Of a DNA stretch of 64,000 nucleotides, positions 34,721 through 53,563 are shown piece by piece (position 1 is the first letter of the stretch; the number at the start of each line of letters is the position of its first letter). The notes under the pieces were generated by a model. The model saw only the letters and a list, made by a program, of their open reading frames with translations, was not told the origin of the DNA and made no database searches. The stretch covers positions 248,001 to 312,000 of the forward strand of contig JAKQNR010000024.1 of NCBI GenBank assembly GCA_029565685.1, read 5' to 3'. The DNA is from a bacterium (GTDB lineage: Bacteria > Zhuqueibacterota > Zhuqueibacteria > Residuimicrobiales > Residuimicrobiaceae). The position numbers were made by a program, and so were the translations under genes.

Positions 34721-34792
34721 ACTCCAGCTCATGGCCCGCTTTCCGCCGGCCAGTTTGATTTGAGGGCGATTTGGAATTCTAATCCCAGACAG

Positions 34793-35656: not shown

Positions 35657-36157
35657 ATGAGCGGTCTGTTGAGGCAAGAACTGCAGAGGCTGTTGGCCGG
35701 CAAAAAAACGGTGGTGTTAGGGATCGGCCGCGAGGGATGCGGCGACGATGCCGTTGGCCCGCTGCTGGCGCAGCGGCTCGGCCGCGGCGATCGGGTGACC
35801 GCCTTGGTGGCTGAGGAACTGCCGGAAAACTATACGGAACCCATCAGGCGCCTGGCGCCGCAGACGATTCTGTTGGTCGATGCGGTGGATTTTAACGGCT
35901 TTGCCGGCCAGGTGGTGCTGCTGCGCGAGGAAGAGTTGACCGCGGTCTCCTGCTCAGCGCATCATGCCTCCCTGCGGCCGCTCATGCGCTATTTGTCGTT
36001 GACCACCGGCGCCCAGATCAGGTTGCTGGGCGTACAACCCGACGCCTGCAGGCCGCAAACCGCTTTGAGCCAGCCGGTTTCGGAAACGCTGTCCGTGTTG
36101 CACTCCTTGCTGTCGCATGGTGAGACCGAAGAGGAAACGTCTAGATGGACACCCTGA
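35657..36157 (+). CDS. hydrogenase maturation protease (HycI/HoxM family)
   Basis: VVLGIGREGCGDDAVGPLLAQRL, LLVDAVDFNGFAGQVVLL; inside the hydrogenase block. Confidence 0.85.
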   Translation: MSGLLRQELQRLLAGKKTVVLGIGREGCGDDAVGPLLAQRLGRGDRVTALVAEELPENYTEPIRRLAPQTILLVDAVDFNGFAGQVVLLREEELTAVSCSAHHASLRPLMRYLSLTTGAQIRLLGVQPDACRPQTALSQPVSETLSVLHSLLSHGETEEETSRWTP

Positions 36158-37605
36158 TCATCCTGCTGTTTGTGATACCCCTTATGGGCGTCGTGCTTGC
36201 AGCCTTTGGCCGTTCTTCCCAGGCTGACCGTTTGGCGCTGCCAGCCATCTCTGCGACGCTGATAGTGTTGCTGTTGCTGCTTGCGACGGCCGATCTGGCT
36301 ACGCCGGTTGTGCGCGTGGCGATTTCCTGGAATTGGCTGCAGGATATGCAGCCGCCGCTGAGCTTTGGATATCAGTTGGATCCATTGAGTTGGTTGTTGT
36401 TGACCGTCGTTGTGGTGCTGGGTTTTCTGGTTTTTATTTTTTCCAGGACCTATCTCAGCGATCAAAACAAAGAACACCCGGATGCTGAGGGAAAAGCGCG
36501 CCATCATGCTTGGTTGATGCTGTTTGTGGTCGCCATGATCGGTGTGGCGGTGTCGCCCAATCTACTGCAGCTGTTTTTCTTTTGGGAGACGACGACGCTC
36601 TGCTCGTGGGCGCTCATCTCTCACTACCGGAATGCCGAGTCCCTGCGCGCCGGCTTTAAAGCGCTGTTGATGACGTTCGGCGGCGGTATCTTTTTTGCTC
36701 TGGGTCTGGTTTTGCTTTTTGCGCAAACGCGCAGCTTTGAATTCTCCGCCCTGCGCGATTTGCCGCAAACGTGGCGGTTTTGGGTTTTCGGCTGCTTTGC
36801 AGTGGCCGCCTGGGCCAAATCCGCTCAAGTGCCGTTCTTCACCTGGCTGCCCGATGCCATGGCCGCGCCTACGACCGTGTCCATGTATCTGCATGCAGCG
36901 GCGATGGTCAAAGCCGGCGTGTTTCTGATCGCCCGCCTCACCCTGGCGAATCAGGAGCTGTCTTTCGGCGCGGGCGTCCTGCTGGCTGTTATGGCGGTGG
37001 TCACGATGATCACCGCGCTGTTGCTGTTTTTCTACCAAAACGATTTAAAGAGGTTGCTGGCCTATTCCACGATCGCCCATCTCTCCTACGTATTGTTTGG
37101 TTTGGGCCTCGGGGTTATGGGCAGCGGTCTTGGCTGGTATGCCGGCGTCATGCATATCATGAACCACAGCGCGGCCAAAGGGCTGCTGTTTCTCTGTGTC
37201 GGCGCGGTTTCCTATAAAGCGGGAACGCGTCAAATCAGCGAACTGAGTGGATTGGCCCGAACCGCGCCGTTGATCGCCGGTGCGTTTTTTGTCGGCATGC
37301 TGGCGCTTCTCGGCGTGCCGCCGTTTTCCTGCTTTTACAGCAAATTTTATCTGCTCACCGCTGCGGTGAATCTGGGCGGTGTGGCGGGTTTCACTTTACT
37401 TATACCATTTATCCTGGAGATGGTCGTCGCGTTCGCCTGGTTTCTGCATATCGGACACAAGGTGTTTTTCGGCCCAGTCTCAGAGTCGGCCGGCCGGGCA
37501 GCCAATCCGCCCCTGTCCATGAGCGTGGTACTGATCCTGTTAATGCTGCTCACCCTGGCTGCCCCCTATTTTGCGTTGCACCTGATGCGCTGTATCGGCA
37601 TGTAA
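36145..37605 (+). CDS. proton-conducting antiporter-like subunit (HyfD/NuoN/NuoM type)
   Basis: Multi-TM; WAKSAQVPFFTWLPDAMAAPTTVSMYLHAAAMVKAGVFL, DLKRLLAYSTIAHLSYV. Confidence 0.87.
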   Translation: MDTLIILLFVIPLMGVVLAAFGRSSQADRLALPAISATLIVLLLLLATADLATPVVRVAISWNWLQDMQPPLSFGYQLDPLSWLLLTVVVVLGFLVFIFSRTYLSDQNKEHPDAEGKARHHAWLMLFVVAMIGVAVSPNLLQLFFFWETTTLCSWALISHYRNAESLRAGFKALLMTFGGGIFFALGLVLLFAQTRSFEFSALRDLPQTWRFWVFGCFAVAAWAKSAQVPFFTWLPDAMAAPTTVSMYLHAAAMVKAGVFLIARLTLANQELSFGAGVLLAVMAVVTMITALLLFFYQNDLKRLLAYSTIAHLSYVLFGLGLGVMGSGLGWYAGVMHIMNHSAAKGLLFLCVGAVSYKAGTRQISELSGLARTAPLIAGAFFVGMLALLGVPPFSCFYSKFYLLTAAVNLGGVAGFTLLIPFILEMVVAFAWFLHIGHKVFFGPVSESAGRAANPPLSMSVVLILLMLLTLAAPYFALHLMRCIGM

Positions 37606-37638
37606 TCTTAACCGGCGCTGGAAGAGGAGTGTCGCCCT

Positions 37639-39693
37639 ATGACTGGTTTTTTTATCGCTCTGATGTTCTATTTAACCGGCGCTGTGTTAGCTTGGCTCTT
37701 CAGCAGCAAACGCCGATGGGTGGGCTCCATCACTTTAGCGGCCCATCTGCTGGCCGCCCTGTCCCTGGCGGACGTGGTCATAGCAGCTTTTCGTCGCGGC
37801 ACGGTGACGATGGAATACCCGCTGTGGACCATCGCGGGAATTCATGCTGAACTTTTTTTCAAAATAGATCCGCTCAGCGCGCTGTTTCTCGCCATCATCG
37901 CTCTGGTCGCCATTTTGGTGCCGCTGTACGGCCGCGGCTATATGAAAATGCCGGAATATGATGAGTACAATCTGGCTGGTTTTTACCCGGTTCTCTCGCT
38001 TTTTTTTGTCGGAGTCTGTTGCGTGGTGGCGGCGGCTGACTTGTTTTTCTTTTTTATTTTTTGGGAGATCATGACCCTATGCTCCTATGGGCTGGTGGTC
38101 TTTGAGAAAAAAGACCGGGAAAAAGGCCGGGCTGGATTGAAATATTTCATCATCACCCACATCGCCACGGCGCTGATGTTTATAGCAGCCATGATCCTTT
38201 ATCGCGAGAGCGGTTCTTTTTCCTTTCAAGGTCAGAGCGATGCCATGACCTCCCTCTTGGCCACGCGGCCGTATTTATTACACCTGGTGTTGTTGTTTTT
38301 CTTTATCGGCTTTGCGACAAAAGCAGGCATTCTTCCCATGGGCGATTGGTTGCCGGGCGCCTATGCAGCCGCCCCCACGCCGGCCACCGCTGCATTCGCC
38401 GGCAGTATGACCAAACTCGGCGTGTATGGCATTTTGCGTATTTTTGTCGACTTGCTGCCCATCAGCGCTTCCACGCAGATTTGGGGCGCCATCATAGCCG
38501 TGTTCGGCACGATCTCTATTTTTATCGGCACGCTGACTGCGCTGGTTCAGGACGACGGTAAAAAACTCCTTTCCTTTCATGTCATCGGACAGATGGGCTA
38601 TATGTTTCTCAGCATCGGCATCGGCATTTATTTTCTCCCCGTGCAGCCGCTGTTGGCGCTGGCCGGGCTGTGCGCCGGCATCTTTCATCTGATCAACAAT
38701 GTGTGCTACAAATCATGTTTGTTTTTCAATGCAGGGTCGGTGTACTGGAAGGTAAAAACCTTCAACATCAACCTGGTGGGGGGACTGGCGCGTCTTTTGC
38801 CGATAACCGCGATGTGGACGCTATTGGCCTCTTTTGCCATCGCTGGGCTGCCGCCATTGAACGGTTTTGCCAGTAAATGGCTGATCTATCAGACCGCCAT
38901 CGCAGGTTCAAACATCGCCCCGCTGTTTATGTTGTTGGCGGTTTTCGCCTTGTTTATCAGCGCAGTCACCCTGGCGTCTTTTATTAAATTTTCCACTGCG
39001 CTTTTCTACGGCAAATATGCGGATCATGGCAGCGGGGCCCAAACCGGCGAAGTGCCGCCGGGCATGCAGCTGAGCCAGGGATTGCTGGTAGCCGCTTGCA
39101 TCGGCCTGGGGCTTTTTCCACTCTGGCCGCTGCACTGGATCAGCCAGGCGGTGTCCGGCCTTTTGCCGTCGGCGTTTTTGCCGCCAGCCTCTGCCCTGGC
39201 CGGCGAACAGACGTTGCATGGAATGGCGCTGCGGTGGGGCGCAGGCTTAACCGCAGCCTGGAATCCTTTATCCCTGCTGCTGGTTTTTATCCTCTGCTTC
39301 GCGCTGGTTTATGGCCTGTATCGCTTGACCAAACCGGTCCGCCGGGTGGAGACGACCTGGTACTGCGGAGAAGAACAGGCGGATGATCAAGTGCGCTATC
39401 AGGCCCACAGTTATTACCTGGCCTTCAAGCAGCTTTTCACTCTGCAGGTGGGCAGATATCAACGGCCGGGCGTGTATCCTACCATTCACTATCCCAAGAT
39501 TGTTTTTTCCGACACCGGCCGGCTAAAAAAGCTGCTCGACCTGGATCACTGGTTCTATCATCCTTTGGCTGATACTTTTCAGAAAATGGCTTATCGTTTC
39601 AGCGCCACTCACAGCGGCATCCCGCACGTCTATCTGCTCTGGTTGCTGCTGGGAGCTGTCAGCGCTGTGGTTTTACTGTTCGTGTTAAAATAA
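37639..39693 (+). CDS. hydrogenase-4 subunit B-like antiporter subunit (HyfB/NuoL type)
   Basis: Multi-TM 684 aa; GFATKAGILPMGDWLPGAYAAAPTPATAAFAGSMTKLGVYGILR, C-terminal WYCGEEQADDQVRYQAHSYYLAFKQLF. Confidence 0.87.
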   Translation: MTGFFIALMFYLTGAVLAWLFSSKRRWVGSITLAAHLLAALSLADVVIAAFRRGTVTMEYPLWTIAGIHAELFFKIDPLSALFLAIIALVAILVPLYGRGYMKMPEYDEYNLAGFYPVLSLFFVGVCCVVAAADLFFFFIFWEIMTLCSYGLVVFEKKDREKGRAGLKYFIITHIATALMFIAAMILYRESGSFSFQGQSDAMTSLLATRPYLLHLVLLFFFIGFATKAGILPMGDWLPGAYAAAPTPATAAFAGSMTKLGVYGILRIFVDLLPISASTQIWGAIIAVFGTISIFIGTLTALVQDDGKKLLSFHVIGQMGYMFLSIGIGIYFLPVQPLLALAGLCAGIFHLINNVCYKSCLFFNAGSVYWKVKTFNINLVGGLARLLPITAMWTLLASFAIAGLPPLNGFASKWLIYQTAIAGSNIAPLFMLLAVFALFISAVTLASFIKFSTALFYGKYADHGSGAQTGEVPPGMQLSQGLLVAACIGLGLFPLWPLHWISQAVSGLLPSAFLPPASALAGEQTLHGMALRWGAGLTAAWNPLSLLLVFILCFALVYGLYRLTKPVRRVETTWYCGEEQADDQVRYQAHSYYLAFKQLFTLQVGRYQRPGVYPTIHYPKIVFSDTGRLKKLLDLDHWFYHPLADTFQKMAYRFSATHSGIPHVYLLWLLLGAVSAVVLLFVLK

Positions 39694-39706
39694 CAAAGGG
39701 CCTCCT

Positions 39707-41389
39707 ATGACATCCAACGAGCTGATCGAACAGTTGCGCACCCGCTTTGGACCCGCTATTCAGCATGCGGAGAAAGTGCAGTCCAACCTCATCATGGCGA
39801 CTGTGGACCGCACGGACTCGGTGGAGGTGAACCGGTATGTCTTTCATGATCTGCAAGCCAGGTTTGTCGTCGCGGTAGGAACAGACTTTCGCGATGTAAC
39901 CGGCCAGTTTTTGGTCGATTACGTCTATTCTCTGGCTGACAGCCATCAGTTTTTGGCCATTCGGTTGCCTCTCCCTGCCGATGATCTTTGGATCAACGCC
40001 ATCACTGGTAAGGCCGATATCCCGGCCGCCAACTGGGCTGAGCGTGAGATTCAGGATATGCTGGGAATCGTGCTTCGTGACCATCCGGATCCGAGAAGGC
40101 TAATGCTGGCGGACGACTGGCCGCAGGATCTGCATCCCTATCGACGCGACATGCCGCTGCAGACCTATCCTGCATCGGTGCAAAACGCGCCGGAGATGAA
40201 AAAACCGCCGGAAGGGGCTACCTTGGTGCCCATCGGTCCTTTTTTCCCAGTGCTGGAAGAGCCGACGCAAATCCGTCTGTTCGTGGAAGGAGAAAAGGTG
40301 GTGGGCGGCGATTACCGCGGCTTTTACAACCATCGCGGCGTGGAAAAGATCGCCGACAGCCAGCTGAACTATAACCAGGTGCCGTTTCTGGCTGAACGCA
40401 TCTGCGGCATATGAGGGTCTGTGCACAGTACGGCGTACTGTCAAGCAGTAGAACAAGCAGCAGAAATAACCGTCCCGGCGCGCGGCCGCTATATCCGTAC
40501 GATCCTGCTCGAATTGGAACGGATTCAAAGCCATCTTTTATGGTTGGGCATCGCCGGACACATCATTGGCTTCGACACGGTGCTGATGCAGGCGTGGCGC
40601 ATTCGCGAACCGGTGATGTGGCTGTGTGAAAAGATCACCGGCAACCGCAAATTGTTGGGTATGAATCTGGTCGGCGGTGTCCGCCGTGATATTCCCCAGG
40701 AGATTCATGCAGAGCTCTTGCAAGTGCTGGCCGGCATCGATAAAGAGTGTAAAAAGGTCTTGGACGCCATCACCACGGACACAACGCTGTTTATGCGTTG
40801 TGAGAACGTGGGCAGGATCAGCGCCGCGGATGCAGTGGCATTGTCTCTGCTGGGACCGACCGCAAGGGCGTCCGGAATCGGCCGTGATATCCGCGTGGAT
40901 CACCCCTACGCCGCCTATGCCGAAGTGGGGTGCCAGGTGATAGTGGAGACGGGGGAGGACATTTGGTCCCGCGTAGTGGTGCGGATGAAAGAGACGTTGG
41001 AAGCGGTCCGCATCATTCGCGATTGTCTCGCTTTGATGCCCAAGGGATCCATTATGGCCGACGTCACCGATCGCATCCCAGCCGGCCGTATCGGCCTCTC
41101 TTCTGTGGAAGCGCCCAGAGGCGAGACGCACCATTTTGTCATTACCGGCGAAGACAGCCGGCCTTATCGCTGGAAGGCGCGCGCTCCCACGTTCCAGAAC
41201 CTGCAGGGCATTCCGGTCATGGTTCAGGGCGAGAACATCGCCGATGTACCCATCGGCCTGGGCAGCATGGATCCCTGTTTCTCCTGCACCGAGCGATGGG
41301 AGACCGTGGATCTGCGCAGTGGGCGGGTGCGCGTCTATAGCAAAGCCGAACTACAGGAGCTGTGCAGAAAACGTTATTCAATTCGTTGA
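39707..41389 (+). CDS. group 4 [NiFe] hydrogenase large subunit (HycE/HyfG-like, NuoC-NuoD fusion), predicted selenoprotein with Sec encoded by TGA 40412-40414
   Basis: ORFs 39707..40414 and 40421..41389 are in the same frame; joined product reads ...PFLAERICGI-U-GSVHSTAYCQAVEQ... (L1 RxCGxCxxxH) ...GSMDPCFSCTERWETVDLRSGR... (L2 DPCxxCxxR) plus a cleavable C-terminal tail; hairpin downstream of TGA. Confidence 0.9.
40412..40447 (+). promoter_or_regulatory. candidate bacterial SECIS element (UGA plus downstream hairpin)
   Basis: UGA GGGUCUGUGC ACAGUAC GGC GUACUGU CAA GCA: 7-bp perfect stem 40425-40431/40435-40441, GGC apical loop 40432-40434 (18-20 nt after UGA), lower UGC/GCA pairing. Confidence 0.75.
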
Positions 41390-41395
41390 GCAATA

Positions 41396-41417
41396 CGCCT
41401 CTTTGATGACAGAGGCG
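41396..41417 (+). repeat. intergenic inverted repeat/hairpin between hydrogenase large subunit and NuoH-like gene
   Basis: CGCCTCT TTGATGAC AGAGGCG, 7-bp perfect stem 7 nt after the large-subunit stop. Confidence 0.6.
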
Positions 41418-41441
41418 AAGACCTTTGAACCGGGAGTTCGC

Positions 41442-42359
41442 ATGTCCAGCTCTGTGCTGCAAACGGTCGCTCAGAGTGCGATCAATGTTCTGCTGGTGTT
41501 GCTGCTGTCCCCTCTGTTGGAGGGGGGGGTGCGCAAACTGGTGGCGCTGGTGCATTCGCGCATCGGTCCGCCGGTGTATCAGCCCTATCTGGATCTCCTG
41601 AAGCTCATGTCCAAGGAAGAGATCGTCAGTTCTTCGGACGGGCTCTTCCGCTACAGCCCGATGATCTGCTTGGCGCTGGTGCTGGCGGCCGCGGTGTTGA
41701 CGCCCATCGGCGCTGCGCCGCCGATGCAGATGAGCGGCGACGCCATCACTTTTGTATACCTGATCACTTTTTCTTCTGTGATGATCATGATGAGCGGCAT
41801 CAGTTCCGCCAGCCCCTACGGCGTGATCGGTTCCGCCCGGGAGATGATGATGATCCTCATGGTGGAGCCGGTGATGCTGATCGCTCTGATCACGCTGGGT
41901 GTAAAAAGCGGCTCCATGCAATTCAGTGACATGATGACGTATCAAGCGGGTCAGGGTCCGGCCCTGTCCACCGTCATTGCGGCCGTGGCGCTGTTCCTGT
42001 CTCTTATTGCTCAGATGGCACGGCTTCCTTTTGACATAGTGGAGGCGGATCAGGAGATTATGGAAGGACCGTTCGTCGAACAGAGCGGAACAAAACTGGC
42101 GTTTTTCAAGTGGGCTTTCTACGCCAAAGAGCTGATCTTCGCGGCGCTGTTCGTTTCTCTTTTCATTCCCCGGCCGGTCTTCGCCGGGTATGGGCTGAAC
42201 CTGCTTTTCGGCTTGCTTAAAATGGCCGTGGTGCTGCTGCTGGTCGGCGTGGTGCATGTGGTGAATCCGCGCTTGCGCATCGATCAGGCGGTGCGCTATT
42301 TCGGCGTTTTGATATTTGTCGCATTGATCGGCCTGACCTTCGCCCTGGTGGGCGCCTGA
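41442..42359 (+). CDS. NuoH/HyfC/HycD-like membrane subunit
   Basis: LVALVHSRIGPPVYQPYLDLLKLMSKE, RLPFDIVEADQEIMEGPFVEQSG; start at 41442 with upstream GGGAG (41406 is an alternative). Confidence 0.88.
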   Translation: MSSSVLQTVAQSAINVLLVLLLSPLLEGGVRKLVALVHSRIGPPVYQPYLDLLKLMSKEEIVSSSDGLFRYSPMICLALVLAAAVLTPIGAAPPMQMSGDAITFVYLITFSSVMIMMSGISSASPYGVIGSAREMMMILMVEPVMLIALITLGVKSGSMQFSDMMTYQAGQGPALSTVIAAVALFLSLIAQMARLPFDIVEADQEIMEGPFVEQSGTKLAFFKWAFYAKELIFAALFVSLFIPRPVFAGYGLNLLFGLLKMAVVLLLVGVVHVVNPRLRIDQAVRYFGVLIFVALIGLTFALVGA

Positions 42360-42393
42360 TCCATCGGTTTCCTATTCACAATCGGGAAGCATT

Positions 42394-42888
42394 ATGTTCA
42401 AAGCCAAACTTAAAGAAGCGATCATCTGTTTTTCCAACCCGCGGGTGACCCTGCCCTATCCCTTCGGCCCCGGCAACCCGGTGGTGGAGGGATTCCGCGG
42501 CAAGCTCGATATCGATGAAACCAAATGCATCGGCTGCGGAGGTTGCGCCAATGTGTGTCCTTCCCGTTTGATCCGTTTTTACGACGACGGAACGGTCACG
42601 CGCATGCAGTTCGTTCTCGATCGTTGCACCTATTGCGGTCGCTGCGCCGAGGTGTGCCCGGAAAAAGCGATCACCATGACGCAGCAATTCGAGACCGCCA
42701 CGGATGATAAGAGCGATCTGTACATTGAACAGACGCTGTACATGGCGACGTGTGCCCGCTGCGGCCGCTGTTTTGAAACCACGAACAGCATTGATAAAAT
42801 TCCGACACGACGTCAGCGTCAGGGCCGCAATTATCTTGGGCCGGCCATGCCGCACGGCGCCCCGGCCGGGGCGGAGGGACAGTCATGA
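42394..42888 (+). CDS. HycF/HyfH/NuoI-like ferredoxin subunit
   Basis: CIGCGGCANVCP and CTYCGRCAEVCPEKAI motifs plus C-terminal CARCGRCF. Confidence 0.88.
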   Translation: MFKAKLKEAIICFSNPRVTLPYPFGPGNPVVEGFRGKLDIDETKCIGCGGCANVCPSRLIRFYDDGTVTRMQFVLDRCTYCGRCAEVCPEKAITMTQQFETATDDKSDLYIEQTLYMATCARCGRCFETTNSIDKIPTRRQRQGRNYLGPAMPHGAPAGAEGQS

Positions 42889-43550
42889 CCGAACACACAT
42901 TGATCACGCTGACCCTGGCGGTGCTGATCACCTCCATCGCCGCCATCGAGATTCGCGCCATGCGTACCACCTCATTCGCGTATCTATTGCACTCGATTTT
43001 TCTCTGCGCCATCATCATCACCTATGCGATCCTCAATGACAATGACAGTCTGTACCTGTGGGCCGGCACCTGTTTTCTGACCAAGGTGCTCCTCATCCCC
43101 TGGTTGCTGTTTCGATTTGTTAAAAACGTGCCGCCGATCGAACATAAACCGATCATCGGGTTTGCGCTGTCCGTTGCTCTCCTGACTCTGTTGATGGTGG
43201 TTCTGTTCTCCCTTTTCCGCAAGGTCATCATTTTGATGGCGCCCACCGCCGCAGCGCAGCAGGAGCCGGTGCGCTCTTTGCTGGCCGGCGCCTGCACCAT
43301 TTTCTGTCTTGGGCTCTGGGGCCTGCTGACCCGCCGCGATGTAGTAAAGACAGTGATCGGGCTGGCGCTGCTGGAGAACGGCGTGCACCTGGTGTTGCTG
43401 GCCTTGGCGCCTCAGCTGAAAGAGACCACGATGATCGGCATTTTAACCAATGTGGTGGCCGTCGTTTTTCTGTTGCTCTATCTCAGCACACAAATCTATC
43501 ATGTGTTCGGAACCACGGATTCAGCCCGGTTGTCGGAGTTAAAGAGATAA
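42885..43550 (+). CDS. HyfE-like (NuoK-related) membrane subunit
   Basis: Multi-TM 221 aa; AIIITYAILNDNDSLYLWAGTCFLTKVLLIPWLLFRFV; overlaps the preceding stop. Confidence 0.82.
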   Translation: MTEHTLITLTLAVLITSIAAIEIRAMRTTSFAYLLHSIFLCAIIITYAILNDNDSLYLWAGTCFLTKVLLIPWLLFRFVKNVPPIEHKPIIGFALSVALLTLLMVVLFSLFRKVIILMAPTAAAQQEPVRSLLAGACTIFCLGLWGLLTRRDVVKTVIGLALLENGVHLVLLALAPQLKETTMIGILTNVVAVVFLLLYLSTQIYHVFGTTDSARLSELKR

Positions 43551-43560
43551 CGAGGTTTTC

Positions 43561-45066
43561 ATGCCAACGGCCCATTCTTCGTTGTTGCCTTTACTGTTGA
43601 TCCTGCTGCCGATCTGCGGCGCGTTGTTTACAGTGCTGTTCGGCTGGGTTAAAGTCAGGAACGCCCGGGAGATCAACACACTGGTGATTCTGGCCGTACA
43701 GCTTTACGGCACTCTGCGTCTTGCGCTGCTGGTTTTCAACGGCCGTGTGGTCCATTGCCTGGGCAACGCCATTTGCATCGACGGCCTGAGCGCACTTATG
43801 GTGATCCTGGTCAACGCGCTGGTCTTTCTGGTTGCGCTCTATTCGGTCCGCTATATGCAGCACGAGGCGGCGGCCGGCGTGATCAGCGACGGCCGGCTGA
43901 CGCTCTATTACAGCCTGTTGCTGCTGTTCACCGGCACCATGAACTGGACGGTTACCACGAATCATCTGGTGATGCTCTATGTGGCTATGGAAGCTTCCAC
44001 CCTGGCCACAGCGTTGCTGGTGGCGTTCTACCGCAACCGGCCCTCTTTGGAGGCGGGTTTTAAATATGTCCTGCTGGTTGTGGTGGGAATGACCTTTGCG
44101 CTGTTCGGCGTGGTGCTGATGTTTTCCGCCGCGTACCCGCATCTGGGTTCAGCAGGTTTGTTGATCTCCGAAGTGGGGCGCATTGCCGCGGTGATTCCGA
44201 AAAACATCGCTCTTTTGGCCATTGCGTTTTTGACCGTAGGCTTTGCCACCAAAGCGGGCCTGGTGCCGTTTCATGCCTGGTTGCCCGACGCCCATTCAGA
44301 AGCGCCCGCGCCCATCAGCGCCCTGCTTTCAGGTTTGATCATAAAGCTCGGCGCCTATGCGCTGACGCGCACGGTAACGATCTTTGCGCCGACCTACCAC
44401 GCCATCGTGGTTTTTATCGCCATTCTCAGCACCTTGAGCATGGTTGTGGGCATCGTCATGGCGCTGGCGCAGGACGATTTGAAGCGGATGCTGGCTTTCA
44501 GCAGCGTCAGCCAGATCAGTTATGTTTTTGAGGGGCTGGGCCTGGGCACATATCTGGGCATCTACGGCGGGCTTTTTCACCTGGTGAACCATACGATCAT
44601 CAAGGCCTTGTTGTTTCTCAGCGTCGGCGCCCTGATGTACGCAACCCAGGGCCGAAGGCGCATCTCCGAACTGGCCGGCGTGGGCAAACGGATGCCGATC
44701 ACCGCTTTTTCTTTCATCGTCGGCGCGCTGGCCATCAGCGGCCTGCCGCCGATGAACGGTTTTGCCAGCAAGTTTACCCTTTTTCTCGCCATCGGCGAGG
44801 TCGGGCTCTATTGGGCGCTGGCCTTGTCGTTGTTCACTGGATTGTTGACGCTGGCCTGCCTGATGCGGGCCGCCTACCTGGTGTTTTGGCAAGCCGGCGA
44901 CAACGGAACCGTGCACACAGTCAAAAAGGCGCCCTGGCCGATGTCCGTGGCTATGCTGGTACTGGCCGGACTGTGTCTACTGATCGGGCTGTATCCGAAC
45001 CTTTTGTATCCGATCCTGCACCAGGCGACCACTGCGGTGCTGGCCATTTGGAGCGTGGGGCAGTAG
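43561..45066 (+). CDS. HyfF/NuoM-like antiporter subunit
   Basis: GFATKAGLVPFHAWLPDAHSEAPAPISALLSGLIIKLGAYAL, DLKRMLAFSSVSQISYVFEGLGLG. Confidence 0.87.
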   Translation: MPTAHSSLLPLLLILLPICGALFTVLFGWVKVRNAREINTLVILAVQLYGTLRLALLVFNGRVVHCLGNAICIDGLSALMVILVNALVFLVALYSVRYMQHEAAAGVISDGRLTLYYSLLLLFTGTMNWTVTTNHLVMLYVAMEASTLATALLVAFYRNRPSLEAGFKYVLLVVVGMTFALFGVVLMFSAAYPHLGSAGLLISEVGRIAAVIPKNIALLAIAFLTVGFATKAGLVPFHAWLPDAHSEAPAPISALLSGLIIKLGAYALTRTVTIFAPTYHAIVVFIAILSTLSMVVGIVMALAQDDLKRMLAFSSVSQISYVFEGLGLGTYLGIYGGLFHLVNHTIIKALLFLSVGALMYATQGRRRISELAGVGKRMPITAFSFIVGALAISGLPPMNGFASKFTLFLAIGEVGLYWALALSLFTGLLTLACLMRAAYLVFWQAGDNGTVHTVKKAPWPMSVAMLVLAGLCLLIGLYPNLLYPILHQATTAVLAIWSVGQ

Positions 45067-45112: not shown

Positions 45113-45628
45113 ATGCTGAAAAATCTGGCCACCAAAGCTTTTCCCAAATCCCTGTGGGTCTACCACACCAACTGCGCGGCCTGCAACGGTTGCGACATTG
45201 AGATCATCAACGTGCTCACGCCCTATTATGATGCGGAACGGTTTGGCATCAAGCTGGTTGGTTCGCCGCGCCATGCCGACGTATTGCTGGTAACCGGCGG
45301 CGTGAGTCGGCAAATCGCACCGGCTCTGCGCCGACTTTTTCGCGCCACGCCCAATCCCAAGCTGGTTTTCGCCATCGGCTCCTGCGCCTGTGGCGGCGAT
45401 GTATTTTATGACAGCTATAACATGTACGGCGGCGTTGATAAGGTCATCCCGGTCCAATTTTATGTGCCAGGTTGTCCGCCCCGGCCAGAGGCGATTTTAT
45501 ACGGTGTGGCTGTAGCGCTGGGGCTGGCGCCCAAACAGGTTTCCGCCAAAAAGAAAGAGGATCTACCCCTTTTCGAAGAGGACTCGCTGCCTATGATCTC
45601 TCCGGCCGGAACTGCACGGTCTGAATGA
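45113..45628 (+). CDS. [NiFe] hydrogenase small subunit (HycG/HyfI/NuoB-like)
   Basis: NCAACNGCDIEIINVLTPYYDAERFG, AIGSCACGGDVF, PGCPPRPEAI. Confidence 0.92.
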   Translation: MLKNLATKAFPKSLWVYHTNCAACNGCDIEIINVLTPYYDAERFGIKLVGSPRHADVLLVTGGVSRQIAPALRRLFRATPNPKLVFAIGSCACGGDVFYDSYNMYGGVDKVIPVQFYVPGCPPRPEAILYGVAVALGLAPKQVSAKKKEDLPLFEEDSLPMISPAGTARSE

Positions 45629-45644
45629 AGACCGATCACGGGGG

Positions 45645-47627
45645 GTGTTTAAAGGGAAGGATACCGCCATTCCCGTCGTCGAAACCATCAAAGATCGCTG
45701 CCGACGCTGCTACTCGTGCATCCGCAATTGCCCGGCCAAAGCCATTCGGATCGAGCGGGGCCAGGCTATGGTCATACAGGAGCGCTGTATCGGATGCGGC
45801 CGTTGTGTGCGCGTTTGTGCGCAAAAGGCGAAAAAAATAGAAAGCGGTGTGGAACGGACCGAGCAGTTCCTGCAGAGCGGCGAACCGGTGTATGCGATTT
45901 TAGCGCCCTCCTTTCCGGCCGCCTATCCGGAGGCCAAGGCGGAACAGATCGTGGCGGCGGTGGCGGCCGCGGGATTCAGCAGGGTGTTCTCCGTTGCTGT
46001 AGGCGCGGATCTGGTGGCGCGTGCGTTTCGCGAGCTTTATCAAAAACAAAGCTATGCGACGCTGATCACCACCTCCTGCCCGGCAGTGGTCAGCTATATA
46101 GAAAAACACCAACCCTCCTTGCTGCTGTTTACCGCGCCGATCGTATCGCCCATGATAGCGACCGGGCGTTTGCTTCGCAGCATGTATTCCTTCACCGGCC
46201 CCATTGTCTTTATCGGACCGTGCATCGCAAAAAAAAAGGAGAAAAGCGACCCTAAAGTCAGCGGAGTGATCGATGAGGTGCTGACTTTTCACGAACTGAA
46301 CCAGCTGCTGGACATGAAACGAATAGCCATCGCGGAACAGGGTGAACGGGAACTGGATCAGCCCTGGCCGCAGCTGGGCAGCATCTTTCCGGTCTCCGGC
46401 GGGCTGTTGCGCAGCACCGAGCTGGCTCACGATCTGCTGAGCAACGAAGTGATTGTGGCAGAAGGCCCGGAACGGGTGTTGGAGGTGCTGCGGCATGTGG
46501 AGCAGGGGACTGTGGAGGCGCGCATTCTTGATCTTTTGTTCTGTCAGGGATGCATCGATGGCCCGGCAATGAACAGCGGCCTTTCGGTATATCTGCGCAA
46601 GGATATTGTTGCCAATTACTGCCGTCGCTGGCTGGATAAGAAAAAGACGGCACCGGCGCTCGAAGCGGTGGACATGACCCGCCGGTTTACGCGCGAGGCG
46701 CATTACCTGCCGCTTCCCTCTGAAGAAGATATTGCCAAAATTTTTCTTCAGATCGATAAGCACAATCCCTCGGACGAGCTCAATTGCGGGGCCTGCGGCT
46801 ATTCCAGCTGCCGCGAAAAGGCCATCGCGGTGTATCAGGGCCGCGCCGAGGTGGAGATGTGTTTGCCGTTTTTAATCGAACGCCTGGAAAAGATGAACCG
46901 GGAGGTTCTGGATGCGCAGGAACGGTTGATCCACGCCGCCCGGTTGACCTCCATGGGCGAGGTGGCGGCGGGCGTGGCGCATGAGATCAACAATCCTGTG
47001 GCCGGAGTGCTCACCTATGTCAAGCTGATGAAGAAAAAAGTGCAGGAGCAGCTGCCGGAGCCGACGCTTTCGGGTATCCTGCGTTATCTGGAGATCATGG
47101 AGACCGAGATGCGCCGCGTCTCCGAAATCGTCAAGGAACTGCTTGATTTCGCCCGTCCAACCGATCCGGACGTGACTCGGATATCGGTGACCGAATTGAT
47201 GAAGAAATCACTTTTTTTGTTGAGTCATCAGTTCGAACTGCAGAACATTCACATCACCGAAACATATCCAGAGCCGGATGAATTTATCCAGGCGGATCTG
47301 AAGCAGATGCAGCAGGTGCTGTTGAATATTCTGATCAATGCAGCGCAAGCGATGCCGAAAGGCGGCGCGCTGTTCGTACGCAGCCGGCAGAGAGGCGTGG
47401 ATCAAGTTGAAATAGAAATTCAGGACACCGGCGAGGGCATTCCCCAGGAACATCTGGGAAAAATATTCGATCCGTTTTTTACCACCAAACTGGAAAAAAA
47501 AGGCACCGGGCTCGGTCTTTCGGTGGTCTACAGCATCGTCGTCAAGCATCATGGGACAATCCATGTGCAGAGCCAGGTTTCCGTCGGCACGACGTTCACG
47601 CTCCGGCTGCCGCGGGCGGTCCCCTAG
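45645..47627 (+). CDS. [FeFe]-hydrogenase-like sensory protein fused to histidine kinase (paralog 1)
   Basis: 2x[4Fe-4S] ferredoxin, H-cluster-like motifs TTSCPAVV / [11 protein letters not shown] / [10 protein letters not shown], FeS domain [26 protein letters not shown], His[11 protein letters not shown], HATPase [25 protein letters not shown] start. Confidence 0.88.
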
Positions 47628-47684
47628 GCGGACGCCTGCGGACCGCTGGCGGAATAGAGAGAAACCCAAGGAGGACCTTTGGTT

Positions 47685-48176
47685 ATGTCAAAAGAGGATA
47701 TCGTACTCATCGTGGATGATGAAAAAGTGATGCGCGATTCATTAGTCGAATGGCTGCAAGAGGACGGGTTCGGCGTCGCCGCCGCCGAGTCGGGGATGGA
47801 AGCGCTGCAGATGCTCGATCAGGTCGATCCGACCGTGATTGTGGCGGACATAAAAATGCCGGGCATGGATGGCATCACGTTGGTGCGCAAGCTCAAAGAA
47901 CGACGTCCGGGATTGCCGGTCATCATGATCACCGCTTTTGCCACCGTTGAAAACGCGGTGCAATCCATGAAGGAGGGCGCGTACGATTTCATCACCAAAC
48001 CGTTTCCGCCGGAAAAACTTTCGCATGTGCTGCGCCATGTCATCGAGCATCAGCACCTGCTGCGTGAAAACCTCTTGCTGCGTAAAGAGAACCGCCATGT
48101 GATGCAGATGGTGATCACCACTCTGGTGGTTTTTGTCGTGCTGTTGTTCGCTCTCTATTTTATTTTCGCCAAATAG
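47685..48176 (+). CDS. response regulator receiver with C-terminal transmembrane helix
   Basis: VLIVDDEKVMRDSL, VADIKMPGMDG, ITAFATVENAVQSMKEGAYDFITKPF, C-terminal VITTLVVFVVLLFALYFIFAK; AAGGAGG upstream. Confidence 0.88.
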   Translation: MSKEDIVLIVDDEKVMRDSLVEWLQEDGFGVAAAESGMEALQMLDQVDPTVIVADIKMPGMDGITLVRKLKERRPGLPVIMITAFATVENAVQSMKEGAYDFITKPFPPEKLSHVLRHVIEHQHLLRENLLLRKENRHVMQMVITTLVVFVVLLFALYFIFAK

Positions 48177-48187
48177 AATGCGCGCGC

Positions 48188-50173
48188 ATGCAGCATATTG
48201 TCACGACAATCGAAACGCGGTGCAAACGCTGCTATTCCTGCGTTCGTCGGTGCCCGGCCAAAGCCATCCGCGTGGAGAATGGACAGGCCAAGGTGATGGC
48301 CGAGCGCTGCATTGCGTGCGGTTATTGCGTCCAAGTGTGCCCGCAAAAAGCGAAAAAAATCCGCGACGGCTTAACCCCGGTATGGAATATGCTGGCCGGC
48401 GAGCAGCCAGTGATCGCCCTGTTGGCGCCGTCGTTTCCAGCCGCCTTTACCGAGGTGCGGCCGACCCAAATGGTTAAGAGTTTGCGCCGGCTGGGCTTTG
48501 CTCAGGTATGGGAGGTGGCGCTGGGCGCTGACGGAGTGGCGCAGCAATACGCCGAGCTCGTGCACCAGGATGTGATGCCCATGCTGATCAGCTCGCCCTG
48601 TCCGGCGGTGGTCAATTATATTGAAAAATATTTTCCCGAGTTGGTGCTGGTCTTGGCCCCGGTGGTTTCGCCCATGATCGCGGTGGGACGGCTCCTTCGC
48701 AGCCGCTTCGGTCCCGACAGCCGCTTGGTGTTCATCGGGCCCTGTATCGCCAAGAAAAAAGAGATGATGGATCCTCAGGTGGCCGGCGTAATCGATGAGG
48801 TGCTGACCTACGAGGAGATCTTGGCCATGCTGGAGTTGGCGGAGATCGATCCGGCAGAACAGGAGGATGCACCGTTCGACAGTCCGGAGGCCGGCTTGGG
48901 CCGCGCATTTCCGCTCTCCGGGGGATTGCTCGAGAGCGCCGCTCTGCAGTACGGCGTGCTGCATGAGGAAATTGCGGTGACCGAAGGCCGTGACCGGGTG
49001 TTGGAAGCCATCGCCAAGACTGCAGAGGGCAAAATCGAAGCGCGGTTTCTCGATCTGCTCTTTTGCGAGGGATGCATCAACGGCCCGCAGATGGCGAACA
49101 CGCTCTCCGGGTTTGTTCGCCGGGACAAGGTTATCGGCTATTGCAAAACCCGGAAGCAGAACTCCGACGTAGCGGCGGCGTTCAACGGAGTGGATCTGCA
49201 CCGGACTTTTACGCCTGAACATCTGAGCACGCCGACGCCTTCGGAAGAGGATATACGTCGTGTTTTAGCGGTCACCGGCAAAGTGTTGCTCGAGGATGAG
49301 CTGAATTGCGGCGCCTGCGGTTATCCCAGCTGCCGCGAAAAGGCTATTGCCGTGCTTCAAGGTTTTGCGGAAGCGGAGATGTGTTTGCCCTATATGGTGG
49401 ATAAGCTGGAGTCGATCCAGGAGGAACTGACCCGGGCCAATTTAGAGCTAAAGGACTCGCTCACCACCCTGCAGAAGACTCAACAACAGCTGGTGCAGTC
49501 GGAAAAGCTCGCTTCAGTCGGTCAGTTGGCCGCGGGGGTTGCCCATGAACTCAATAATCCACTGGGCGGCATTCTCATCTACTCCGGTCTTTTGTTGGAG
49601 CAGGTGGATAAAGAGAGCCGGCAGGCCAAAGATCTGCAGCGGATCATGGCCGAGACAGACCGCTGCCGTCGCATTGTCCGCGGCCTGTTGGATTTTTCAC
49701 GGCAAACCCGCATTGACGCGGCGATCGTCAATCTCAATAAAATTTTGAGCAGCACTCTGGCCCTGGTAACCGAGCAGGCGATGTTCCTCAACATACAGGT
49801 GGTGCAGCAATTGGAGGACTCGTTGCCCAATGTGTTAGTCGATGTGGGCCAGATCCAGCAAGTCTTTCTCAACATTATTTTAAACGCCGCGGATGCTATG
49901 AACGGCAGAGGCACCCTGAGCGTGCGCAGTAGAACCTCGCCAGAGGGGGATTGCGTGCTGGTTTCTTTCACCGACACCGGCAGCGGCATGACTGCGGAAA
50001 TCATTTCGAGAATTTTTGAGCCGTTTTTTACCACCAAGCCGCGGGGCCAGGGCACCGGGCTGGGACTGGCCATCGCCTACGGCATCGTGCAAAGGCATCA
50101 TGGCGATATTCTAGTAGCCAGTCAACCGGGGATGGGCAGCACGATCACGGTCAAATTGCCGACCGCCGCCTGA
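48188..50173 (+). CDS. [FeFe]-hydrogenase-like sensory protein fused to histidine kinase (paralog 2)
   Basis: Same architecture as 45645..47627: [88 protein letters not shown], HATPase. Confidence 0.88.
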   Translation: MQHIVTTIETRCKRCYSCVRRCPAKAIRVENGQAKVMAERCIACGYCVQVCPQKAKKIRDGLTPVWNMLAGEQPVIALLAPSFPAAFTEVRPTQMVKSLRRLGFAQVWEVALGADGVAQQYAELVHQDVMPMLISSPCPAVVNYIEKYFPELVLVLAPVVSPMIAVGRLLRSRFGPDSRLVFIGPCIAKKKEMMDPQVAGVIDEVLTYEEILAMLELAEIDPAEQEDAPFDSPEAGLGRAFPLSGGLLESAALQYGVLHEEIAVTEGRDRVLEAIAKTAEGKIEARFLDLLFCEGCINGPQMANTLSGFVRRDKVIGYCKTRKQNSDVAAAFNGVDLHRTFTPEHLSTPTPSEEDIRRVLAVTGKVLLEDELNCGACGYPSCREKAIAVLQGFAEAEMCLPYMVDKLESIQEELTRANLELKDSLTTLQKTQQQLVQSEKLASVGQLAAGVAHELNNPLGGILIYSGLLLEQVDKESRQAKDLQRIMAETDRCRRIVRGLLDFSRQTRIDAAIVNLNKILSSTLALVTEQAMFLNIQVVQQLEDSLPNVLVDVGQIQQVFLNIILNAADAMNGRGTLSVRSRTSPEGDCVLVSFTDTGSGMTAEIISRIFEPFFTTKPRGQGTGLGLAIAYGIVQRHHGDILVASQPGMGSTITVKLPTAA

Positions 50174-50208: not shown

Positions 50209-50658
50209 ATGAGCGAAGCCATTAAGATACTGCTGATCGACGATGATGTGGATTTCATCCTGATCAATCGGACGATTCTAGAGGCCAACGGCTATGAGGT
50301 CGATGCCTGTTTCGACGCCCGTTGCGCTTTGGAGAAAATCAAGACCTGGAAACCGGATCTCATCTGTCTGGATGTGATGATGCCGACCGGCACCGAGGGG
50401 TTTCACCTCGCCTATAAAATACGCCGGGATCCCGAGTGCCAGAACATTCCAATATTGATGATCACCTCCATCCATGATTACAGCGATTTCCGCTTTTCCA
50501 CAGAGGACGGGGATTTTTTACCGGTGGACGAATTCATTGAAAAGCCGATTCGCGCCGAGGTGTTGTTGAAAAAAGTGCGAGAGCTTCTAGCGACCCGCGG
50601 GGCGGCCTCGGCAAAACCTCCGCAGGAGGACAAGGGCATCGGCTTGAAGAAAAAATGA
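50209..50658 (+). CDS. single-domain response regulator
   Basis: ILLIDDDVDFILINRTIL, CLDVMMPTGTEGF, FIEKPIRAEVL. Confidence 0.85.
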   Translation: MSEAIKILLIDDDVDFILINRTILEANGYEVDACFDARCALEKIKTWKPDLICLDVMMPTGTEGFHLAYKIRRDPECQNIPILMITSIHDYSDFRFSTEDGDFLPVDEFIEKPIRAEVLLKKVRELLATRGAASAKPPQEDKGIGLKKK

Positions 50659-50697: not shown

Positions 50698-51114
50698 ATG
50701 ACGGCCGCTGAGAAAAAAATATTGCTCGTTGATGATGATCCGGCGTTTCTAGAGATCAACCACCTGATCCTGGAATCAGCCGGCTATCAGGTGGCGGAGG
50801 CCGGCTCCGTGGACCAGGCGTTGCGCTTGCTCCAGAGCGACCGCTTCGATCTGTTGGTTCTGGATTTGATCATGGAGAGTATGGACTCCGGATTCACCAT
50901 CGCTTATGCCGTGCGCAATGACGAACGGCTGCGCGACCTGCCCATCCTGCTGTTGACGTCGGCACAGGAACGCACTGGTTTCACCTTTGAGATGGAACGA
51001 GATCAGGAATGGATGAAAGTGGATGAGGTGGCGGCCAAACCGCTGCGTCCCACTGAACTGATTGAACGGGTGGAGCGGCTGCTGGCTAAAACGAAAAAGG
51101 AAACGCATGGATAA
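50698..51114 (+). CDS. single-domain response regulator
   Basis: ILLVDDDPAFLEINHLIL, LVLDLIMESMDSGF, AAKPLRPTELIERVE. Confidence 0.83.
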   Translation: MTAAEKKILLVDDDPAFLEINHLILESAGYQVAEAGSVDQALRLLQSDRFDLLVLDLIMESMDSGFTIAYAVRNDERLRDLPILLLTSAQERTGFTFEMERDQEWMKVDEVAAKPLRPTELIERVERLLAKTKKETHG

Positions 51115-52609
51115 TCAGGTGCGCCTGTTAATCGTTGACGATGAAGAGATCATTCGCATCGGCTGCCAGCGTATCCTGGAAGAGACCTATGCGACCGTAG
51201 AGGTGGCGGAGAACGGTCGGTTGGGCTGGGAGCGGCTTCAGCAAGAGCCCTTTGATCTGATCCTGCTTGACCTGATGATGCCCGAGATGGGCGGCTTGGA
51301 GGTGTTGGAGAAGGTGCAGGCGCTCGATCCGGAGATGGTGGTGATCATGATCACCGGTTTTGCCACCATTGAGACCGCAGTGGATGCGATGCGCAAGGGG
51401 GCTTACGATTATCTGCCCAAACCGTTCACGCCGGAGGAGCTGCGCACCAAGGTGAGCCGCGGGTTGGAGAAACGGCGGCTGATCCTGCAGGCCCGTGCGC
51501 TGATTCTAGAACGCGATCGCAATCTGTTGGAATGCGCGAACGAAAAATCGCGCACCATGACCATCATCAACTGCCTGAGCGAGGGACTGATCGCGACCAA
51601 CCGGACCGGGCAGATCGTGCTGATGAACCCGGCGGCGATCAAGATGCTGCGGCCCCAGGTCGATTCGGTGATCGGCCGCACGGTGTCCGGCCTGCTGGGC
51701 CATCCGGAACAAGAGAAGGCGATCGCGGAAATGCTGGCGACCGTGACCGCCACCGGCGCCATCACTCAGATGGAAATGCAGACGTGCGATGAGCGCGTGC
51801 TGGAATCACACGTCAGTCCGATCCTGGATGACCACGGCGAGTGCCTCGGTACGGTTACGGTGCTTTTAGACATCACCCAGGATAAAAAAATTGAAAAGAT
51901 GAAGTCCGATTTTGTCCGCCTGGTGTCGCACGAATTAAAAGCGCCGGTGGCCGCCATCGCCGGGTATCTGAACCTCATCATCGACGGCTTGACGGCGAGC
52001 CAACCAGATAAAGAGAAGGACATCATCTTGCGTTCGCGCGACAAAGCCAATGCGCTTCTGGATCTGATCAACGATCTGTTGGATCTGTCGCGCAGCGAGC
52101 GCAACCGCAGCGCGGGCGTGCAGAAACGACTGGACCTAGGCGCGGTGTTGACCGAGACCGTCAAATTCTATCACAATGAAGCTCAGCTTCGGCATCTCGA
52201 GCTGGCCTTGCACCTGCCCACCACTATCCCGCCGGTGGTCGGCGATGCCGAGGCGCTGGGCCGGGTGTTCGCTAACTTGATCGGCAATGCGATTAAATAC
52301 ACGCCGGAGGGCGGTCGTGTGGATGTGGAGCTCATTCAGCGCGACGGTTGGCTGGCGATTGCCGTGCGCGATACCGGCATGGGCATTGCCCCGGATGAGA
52401 TAAAAAAAATATTCGACGAATTTTACCGCAGCCGTCAGGTGATCCTGCAAAAGATCCCTGGCACTGGTTTGGGATTGTCCATCGCCAAACAGATCGTTGA
52501 GGCCCATCGCGGTTACATGGAGGTGGAAAGTGCGGTGCATCAGGGTTCGGTGTTTCGCGCCTGGTTTCCGATCGCCGATGCCCTGCCGACGGCTGCGCCC
52601 GTTGTCTGA
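51107..52609 (+). CDS. receiver - PAS - histidine kinase hybrid
   Basis: LLIVDDEEIIRIGC receiver, PAS-like NCLSEGLIATNRTGQIVLMNPAA, H-box FVRLVSHELKAPVAAIAGYLN, HATPase NLIGNAIKYTPEGG / GTGLGLSIAKQIV; start 51107 overlaps the preceding gene. Confidence 0.88.
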   Translation: MDNQVRLLIVDDEEIIRIGCQRILEETYATVEVAENGRLGWERLQQEPFDLILLDLMMPEMGGLEVLEKVQALDPEMVVIMITGFATIETAVDAMRKGAYDYLPKPFTPEELRTKVSRGLEKRRLILQARALILERDRNLLECANEKSRTMTIINCLSEGLIATNRTGQIVLMNPAAIKMLRPQVDSVIGRTVSGLLGHPEQEKAIAEMLATVTATGAITQMEMQTCDERVLESHVSPILDDHGECLGTVTVLLDITQDKKIEKMKSDFVRLVSHELKAPVAAIAGYLNLIIDGLTASQPDKEKDIILRSRDKANALLDLINDLLDLSRSERNRSAGVQKRLDLGAVLTETVKFYHNEAQLRHLELALHLPTTIPPVVGDAEALGRVFANLIGNAIKYTPEGGRVDVELIQRDGWLAIAVRDTGMGIAPDEIKKIFDEFYRSRQVILQKIPGTGLGLSIAKQIVEAHRGYMEVESAVHQGSVFRAWFPIADALPTAAPVV

Positions 52610-52646: not shown

Positions 52647-53018
52647 ATGGTTGACATCAATACCTTGTTGGGTCGAGAGATGGTGATTCGCGATCTCGAA
52701 CAGCTGCTGCAAAGCCAGGTGTTGAGCGGGCAGGATCGGCTGCAGACGCCCGTACAGGGCGTGCTGGTATCGGATATTCTCAGCGATGTGATGGTAAAAG
52801 CCGGCCAGGGCTGGCTATGGGTAACCCATCAGACCACCGTGAACGTGATCGCCATAGCATTCTTTAAAGGATTGGCCGGAGTGATCCTGCCCGACCATCT
52901 GCAGCTCAGAGACGATGCGCTGGCCAAAGCGGTGGAAAAAGAAATACCGGTTTTGTCATCCGCCCTGAGCGCTTATCAGGTAATCGGCAAGCTGTACAAA
53001 ATGGGGCTGCAGGGATGA
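52647..53018 (+). CDS. DRTGG-like domain protein
   Basis: ~120 aa; LLGREMVIRDLEQLL, VLVSDILSDVMVKAGQGWLWVTHQTTVNVIAIAFFKGLAGVILPDH resembles small DRTGG-type proteins; family call by eye. Confidence 0.6.
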   Translation: MVDINTLLGREMVIRDLEQLLQSQVLSGQDRLQTPVQGVLVSDILSDVMVKAGQGWLWVTHQTTVNVIAIAFFKGLAGVILPDHLQLRDDALAKAVEKEIPVLSSALSAYQVIGKLYKMGLQG

Positions 53019-53089
53019 GCGGATCGGCGCCCAGCGCGAACCGTGGACGCCGGTGCAGAATCGATGACATGTTCTATTGGAGGGACAAG

Positions 53090-53563
53090 ATGGCCAATCT
53101 ATTTCTCGCGAGCGAAATTCTGGAGATGAATGTGCAGGAAGAACGCAACGGCGCTGCCTTTTACGCCCGTTTGGCGGAGAAATCGGCCCATCCGCTTGTA
53201 AAAAAACACGCAGCAGAGATTGCCGAGCAGGAGCGACATCATGAAACGTTGTTCACCAGGATGCTGCAGGAATGTGAACAGGTGGAACCCAATGAAGCGT
53301 ATCCGGGCGAATACGACGCTTACCGCCAGGCCTTGCTAAAAAATAAAATGTTCGCCGACGAGCAGGATGCGGCGGAAAAGGCGGAACAGTGGACTGATAA
53401 AGAGGCCCTGACTTTTGCCCTGAAAACCGAACAGGCGACGCTGAATCTGCTGAAAGAGTTGACCAAGCATATCGATCCCCGGGAATTGCCGTTAATCCAG
53501 ATCACAGTGGACGAAGAAGCGAATCACGTCAAGGTGTTGAACGAGCTGCTGCAGAAGATTTGA
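53090..53563 (+). CDS. rubrerythrin-like ferritin-family diiron protein
   Basis: EERNGAAFYARLAEKSAHPLVKKHAAEIAEQERHHETLFTRML and DEEANHVKVLNELLQ (ExxH motifs); ggaggg SD before ATG 53090. Confidence 0.82.
   Translation: MANLFLASEILEMNVQEERNGAAFYARLAEKSAHPLVKKHAAEIAEQERHHETLFTRMLQECEQVEPNEAYPGEYDAYRQALLKNKMFADEQDAAEKAEQWTDKEALTFALKTEQATLNLLKELTKHIDPRELPLIQITVDEEANHVKVLNELLQKI

Follow-up and report, generated by a model that had tools for sequence, protein, structure and literature searches.

The window analysed here, a 64,000-nucleotide stretch of a bacterial genome (GenBank assembly GCA_029565685.1, contig JAKQNR010000024.1, forward-strand positions 248,001 to 312,000), contains two genes that each encode a sensory [FeFe]-hydrogenase-like protein (HydS) fused to a histidine kinase, and they follow the genes for a Hyf-type (group-4) [NiFe] hydrogenase. 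The source genome (5.28 Mb across 52 contigs, with a completeness of 91.8%) probably belongs to candidate division KSB1, and its class is called the KSB1 class below. The two genes, HydS-HK1 and HydS-HK2 (hereafter HK1 and HK2), are given here in window coordinates.

45645-47627, + strand: HydS-HK1, 660 aa, GTG start; ferredoxin-type 2x[4Fe-4S] motifs C19-C29 and C48-C58, L1 TTSCP (142), L2 GPCIAKK (191), L3 CQGC (300); C-terminal half with an iron-sulfur (Fe-S) domain Cx2Cx4Cx16C (381), the HisKA phospho-acceptor His446 and a HATPase domain
48188-50173, + strand: HydS-HK2, 661 aa; L1 SSPCP (135), L2 GPCIAKK (184), L3 CEGC (293), Fe-S domain (374), phospho-acceptor His453 and a HATPase domain

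Both proteins were read from the open reading frame list, Pfam, an alignment to CpI and a motif scan, and HK2 also from a structural model. They share 48% identity and the same layout and are therefore paralogs: two ferredoxin-type [4Fe-4S] motifs are followed by an [FeFe]-hydrogenase H-domain, the Cx2Cx4Cx16C Fe-S domain, HisKA and HATPase. The Pfam matches are Fer4, Fe_hyd_lg_C (E-values of 1e-42 and 2e-50), FeS (PF04060), HisKA and HATPase_c, and the kinase boxes H, N, G1, F and G2 are all intact. The first-pass annotation had described two ~660-aa paralogs with this composition, carrying TTSCP or SSPCP at L1, GPC at L2 and CxGC at L3; the reading frames and Pfam agree with the composition, and the motif scan and the CpI alignment with the three motifs. 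It had also placed the two genes in tandem downstream of the [NiFe] hydrogenase. The downstream position holds, in that HK1 starts 17 bp after the stop of the small-subunit gene, but the genes are not strictly tandem because a receiver gene separates them.

Residues are numbered according to CpI, from the alignment with its PDB entry. HK1 and HK2 retain the four cluster-ligand cysteines (C300, C355, C499 and C503) together with K358, E361, S323, P324 and the 230-232 motif. Position 299 holds Ser or Pro in place of Cys, positions 353 and 497 hold Gly and Leu, respectively, in place of Met, residue 501 is deleted in L3, and the proton-path residues E279, E282 and S319 are replaced or missing. 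Most of the kinase-fused HydS family shares this pattern, with some members differing at position 299, and nearly all of its members have Leu497 and the one-residue L3 deletion. The shorter homologs with the length of the PAS-type proteins (L083, L084 and L091) retain a CxxxC L3 and Met497. As judged from the alignment, the short L3 marks the kinase-fused and related long-C-terminus HydS branches rather than sensory enzymes generally. The four cysteine ligands are conserved in every HydS that was labelled for HydG status, including the two window proteins.

The AlphaFold2 model of HK2, built from 55 sequences, is confident (mean predicted local distance difference test score 88.9) and has a single long helix, residues 400-472, linking the Fe-S domain to the kinase. 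In a Foldseek search of the PDB, the sensor half resembles solved [FeFe] hydrogenases and the kinase half resembles ZraS. A chance match or mis-annotation is ruled out by the Pfam E-values and the confident fold. The HydS kinases are under strong purifying selection, with a nonsynonymous-to-synonymous substitution ratio (dN/dS) of 0.06-0.09 within the genus.

HK1 and HK2 are thus kinase-fused group C 'sensory' [FeFe]-hydrogenases, a known and widespread kind called HydS or, elsewhere, BfuT. They show the group C features of two N-terminal [4Fe-4S] motifs, four cluster cysteines, loss of C299 and M353, and the Cx2Cx4Cx16C domain. Pfam did not find the C-terminal PAS domain of group C HydS in either protein, and HisKA and HATPase stand there instead; the published group C includes kinase-linked members (PMC5037454, PMC11406978). 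In the CpI-numbered alignment, neither protein has the group A catalytic set of C299, M353, M497, E279, E282 and S319. The prediction of a sensory rather than a catalytic H-domain was borne out, as were its fusion to an intact kinase and its linkage to a hydrogenase operon, which is conserved over several families of the class. Judged by these sequence features, there is good support for a role as sensor kinases.

The maturases HydE, HydF and HydG are missing from this lineage. A model search of the source genome gave no match over the cut-off for any of the three; the best match to the HydF model (L001), near the window, was rejected as HydF, being an MnmE-like GTPase. None of the three was found in genomes of the same genus or in any member of the six-genome family. 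Among 60 relatives, HydG occurs in four, HydF in three and HydE in four, always among the same four genomes (G006, G020, G023 and G028), while 30 of the 60 have full HydS-type matches and one more has a partial match. One of those four, G028, has HydG and HydE and no HydF match at an E-value of 1e-40. The relatives that lack all three maturases include many that are 90-98% complete and one assembled in 5 contigs (G017). We rejected the explanation that the gap is an artefact of one incomplete assembly, as the genus, the family and most of the class are without all three. Of 50 HydS-carrying genomes reached via other loci, 31 have HydG, compared with 3 of the 31 HydS-carrying relatives (Fisher P 2e-6), a value that calls for caution, as the genomes are not independent and the completeness of the 50 is not established. 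The absence of HydE, HydF and HydG from the genome, the genus, the family and most HydS-carrying genomes of the class is a new observation. So is the occurrence of HydS as the only [FeFe]-like (PF02906) protein in six other genomes, in which HydG and HydF were not found. A literature search on HydA in genomes lacking HydE, HydF and HydG found nothing on point. A paper on Zhuqueibacterota reports [NiFe] and [Fe-Fe] hydrogenases, and the portions of it that we draw on do not mention [FeFe] maturases.

Relatives of HK1 and HK2 are encoded at no fewer than 574 loci of the genome collection. Outside the KSB1 class, they mostly adjoin genes for group A3 HydA, NuoE and NuoF, which is the BfuT arrangement. 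Within the class, a clade of 24 HydS kinases with a support of 0.957 contains both window proteins and the homologs that lie beside [NiFe] operons, and the gene order of small subunit, HydS kinase and receivers recurs over several families. G004 and G006 likewise carry two HydS-kinase copies with a receiver between them, and G001 holds both copies. This well-supported clade, which goes with [NiFe] hydrogenase operons and not with [FeFe] hydrogenases, is new. In a Dehalococcoidales genome, the neighbours of a homolog are MvhG/MvhA-like genes, which belong to a group-3 [NiFe] hydrogenase, and the gene for a REC-AAA-HTH (NtrC-like) regulator.

The genes around HK1 and HK2 are the following.

31707-35626, + strand: FdhF-like molybdopterin protein and sulfhydrogenase beta/gamma-like (NAD(P)-linked) subunits, upstream
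35657-45066, + strand: other hydrogenase-4-type genes (HycI protease; HyfD-, HyfB-, NuoH-, NuoI-, HyfE- and HyfF-like subunits)
39707-41389, + strand: fused NuoC/D-type [NiFe] large subunit, read through an in-frame TGA at 40412-40414
45113-45628, + strand: [NiFe] hydrogenase small subunit (NuoB/HyfI-like), its adjacency to HydS-HK1 conserved in relatives
47679-48176, + strand: receiver-only response regulator (REC) between HydS-HK1 and HydS-HK2, from Pfam, with a better start at ATG 47685 after AGGAGG
50209-50658, + strand: receiver-only response regulator, from the open reading frame list and Pfam
50698-51114, + strand: receiver-only response regulator, from the open reading frame list and Pfam
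51107-52609, + strand: REC-PAS-HisKA-HATPase hybrid kinase; the reading frame opens at 51062 and ATG 51107 is preferred
52647-53018, + strand: DRTGG-domain protein (weak Pfam match), recurring near HydS and HydABC
53015-53563, + strand: rubrerythrin-like protein, the last gene of the cluster, conserved in relatives

Since the genes from 31707 to 53563 are all on one strand with mostly short gaps, they probably form a single operon. The first-pass annotation had suggested control of the adjacent operon as a likely role of the pair; the genes nearest HK1 and HK2 encode receivers and another kinase and no DNA-binding regulator. The receiver between the pair has, as read by eye, a hydrophobic C-terminal segment that is probably a membrane anchor. 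In the large subunit, the in-frame TGA takes the place of the second Cys of the L1 motif (RICGI-TGA-GSVHS) and is conserved in several relatives; a hairpin lies just 3' of it, similar in several relatives, and the genome has a SelB gene. The TGA is therefore a probable selenocysteine codon, which would place the selenocysteine in L1, whereas that of the classical [NiFeSe] enzymes is in L2. The FdhF-like protein (31707-33662) reads, by eye, RLHASPTV, where formate dehydrogenases usually carry Cys or Sec before His, and it is perhaps not one of these enzymes.

Elsewhere in the source genome, on contig C41, a third HydS-kinase paralog directly follows a catalytic hydA. The same contig also encodes a REC-457 regulator. 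A gene for a Mur-ligase-like P-loop protein (L016:12169-13332) adjoins this HydA/HydS cluster and recurs in a few relatives. The genome has three catalytic-type HydA genes (C41:84696, C41:96374 and C4:37721), all with Ser300; that at C41:84696 also has Ser297, His325 and Asn501, and that at C4:37721 (L012) has Met325 and an L1 of TSCSS. If no H-cluster were made, a catalytic HydA should drift. Sixteen listed HydA from KSB1-class genomes without HydG were compared. Positions 230, 231, 279, 282, 298, 299, 319, 323, 324, 353, 355, 358, 361, 417, 497, 499 and 503 are invariant in these. L1 varies around C299: position 300 is Ser in 16 of 16, two sequences carry Ser for Thr at position 297 (the C41 HydA and its G001 homolog), and one, the C4:37721 protein, carries Ser for Pro at position 301. 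Ser300 is also the majority residue in HydA of HydG-positive genomes (20 of 32) and is present in A. woodii HydA1, so it is by itself no sign of loss. The other varying positions are 232 (Ala/Ser), 325 (Gln/His/Met), 418 (Gly/Ala) and 501 (Gly/Asn). With a within-genus dN/dS of 0.026 for HydA and the values given above for the HydS kinases, these genes are under strong selection. Judged by its residues, the HydA pocket looks functional outside L1 and a small number of second-shell positions.

From these observations, we favour the reading that the HydS kinases are Fe-S redox sensors without the [2Fe] subcluster of the H-cluster, with a probability of roughly one half. The first-pass annotation had proposed H2/redox sensing and had named an absence of hydEFG from a complete genome, in which case no H-cluster is built, as a ground for refuting its proposal. 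That absence is largely what is found, and H2 sensing through an H-cluster lacks support in that form, while the sensor-kinase role is unaffected. The only known machinery that makes the [2Fe] subcluster is HydE, HydF and HydG, and with these absent, the sensor in this lineage probably lacks it. The missing maturases together with the orphan HydS kinases, Leu497 and the shortened L3 favour redox sensing; CpI M497L was reported without a properly integrated [2Fe] cluster (PMC10055695). As for signal, path, partners and output, we infer that HK1 and HK2 would act as soluble sensor histidine kinases in which the group-C-type input half has been turned into an Fe-S sensor serving the adjacent [NiFe] complex. 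The reduced ferredoxin pool or the hydrogenase complex would supply electrons, which would pass by way of the two N-terminal [4Fe-4S] clusters to the H-domain cubane, held by the equivalents of C300, C355, C499 and C503. The change would then be relayed through the Cx2Cx4Cx16C domain and the long helix to HisKA, where it would set autophosphorylation of His446/His453, and the phosphate would be handed to the three neighbouring receivers and to the REC-PAS kinase. Under either reading, the route by which a change at the clusters would reach the kinase is uncertain, because in group D HydS the redox state of the C-terminal cluster was reported to be unchanged under H2 (PMC13104023).

The main rival, to which we give a somewhat lower probability, is a genuine H2 sensor kinase, in which H2 binding to a complete, slow H-cluster like that of Thermotoga maritima HydS would switch the kinase, with the [2Fe] unit stemming from unassembled hydEFG genes or from a route not yet known. 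The conserved pocket keeps this reading alive: HK1 and HK2 hold the four cluster ligands, K358, E361 and both the 230-232 and the 323-324 motif, and their changes at C299 and M353 are those usually seen in sensory enzymes that have been characterised (PMC8163306, PMC10055695). Linkage to H2-metabolism genes is frequent, and HydA of the same genomes retain the proton path and most of the pocket. Two observations weigh directly against our redox-sensor reading. HydA of the HydG-less KSB1-class genomes keep E279, E282, C299, S319, M353, K358 and M497 with no exception, a pattern of residues that would fit continued H-cluster synthesis in those genomes. Also, A230, P231, S323, P324 and K358, which touch or anchor the [2Fe] subcluster, are almost invariant in HydS of genomes without HydE, HydF and HydG. 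Among all HydS aligned, A230-P231 is changed only in two Dehalococcoidia orphans, whose genomes have no other PF02906 protein. With so little drift outside these two, we rejected residue drift as proof of [2Fe] loss. This retention of active-site residues in HydA and HydS kinases raises the possibility that KSB1-class bacteria build H-clusters by a new, HydE-, HydF- and HydG-independent route, which we consider unlikely. An H-cluster sensor is disfavoured, on the other hand, by the joint absence of the three maturases from many 90-98% complete relatives including the 5-contig genome, by the shortened L3 and Leu497 of the kinase-fused branch, and by the genomes in which HydS is the sole [FeFe]-like protein and HydG and HydF are missing.

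Two further readings are less probable. The H-domain could be a protein-interaction module that docks on the [NiFe] complex or HydA and signals the assembly state through its Fe-S clusters, as the gene position straight after the small subunit in many genomes and the conservation of the Fe-S ligands with or without HydG would allow; the intact kinase boxes, however, lead one to expect some regulated input, and this reading is improbable. That HK1 and HK2 are catalytic or ancillary [FeFe] hydrogenases merely carrying a kinase would fit the H-domain fold, but C299, M353, M497, E279, E282 and S319 are all replaced or missing and the maturases are absent, and we give this almost no weight.

Kinase-fused [FeFe]-type sensors are assumed to read H2 via the H-cluster, and direct physiological evidence has been described as scarce (PMC8924675). 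A [NiFe]-dedicated clade in maturase-less genomes makes this assumption testable. Should the clade signal, the hydrogenase fold has turned into a simple Fe-S redox sensor; should it respond to H2 after all, the textbook misses a maturation route. H-domain genes alone are also poor ground for calling H2 sensing or [FeFe]-hydrogenase activity in metagenome-assembled genomes.

Among known systems, HK1 and HK2 resemble the group C HydS of T. maritima (TmHydS) in the two N-terminal [4Fe-4S] motifs, the conserved cluster cysteines, the absence of C299, the M353 to Gly change, the C-terminal Cx2Cx4Cx16C domain and the usual position near hydrogenase genes (PMC8163306, PMC10055695). TmHydS differs in that it ends in PAS rather than HisKA-HATPase and in that an H-cluster can be installed in it, whereas the genome of HK1 and HK2 is without HydE, HydF and HydG; HK1 and HK2 further have Leu497 and an L3 one residue shorter than that of the compared PAS-type-length homologs. 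By description, they also resemble HydDB group C1 (histidine kinase-linked), which like C3 (phosphatase-linked) contains putative H2 sensors (PMC5037454). The regulatory [NiFe] hydrogenase with its HoxJ/HupT kinase is similar by analogy only, as a hydrogenase-derived sensor with a histidine kinase; its sensor fold is unrelated, while here the sensor and the kinase are one [FeFe]-type polypeptide. BfuT of Hydrogenedentota and Caldithrix, reported in a paper that does not mention HydE, HydF or HydG (PMC11406978), likewise joins a HydS H-domain to a histidine kinase domain, and the C41 paralog directly after hydA has the same arrangement. The pair in the window, in contrast, follows a group-4 [NiFe] small subunit and not BfuABC/HydABC genes.

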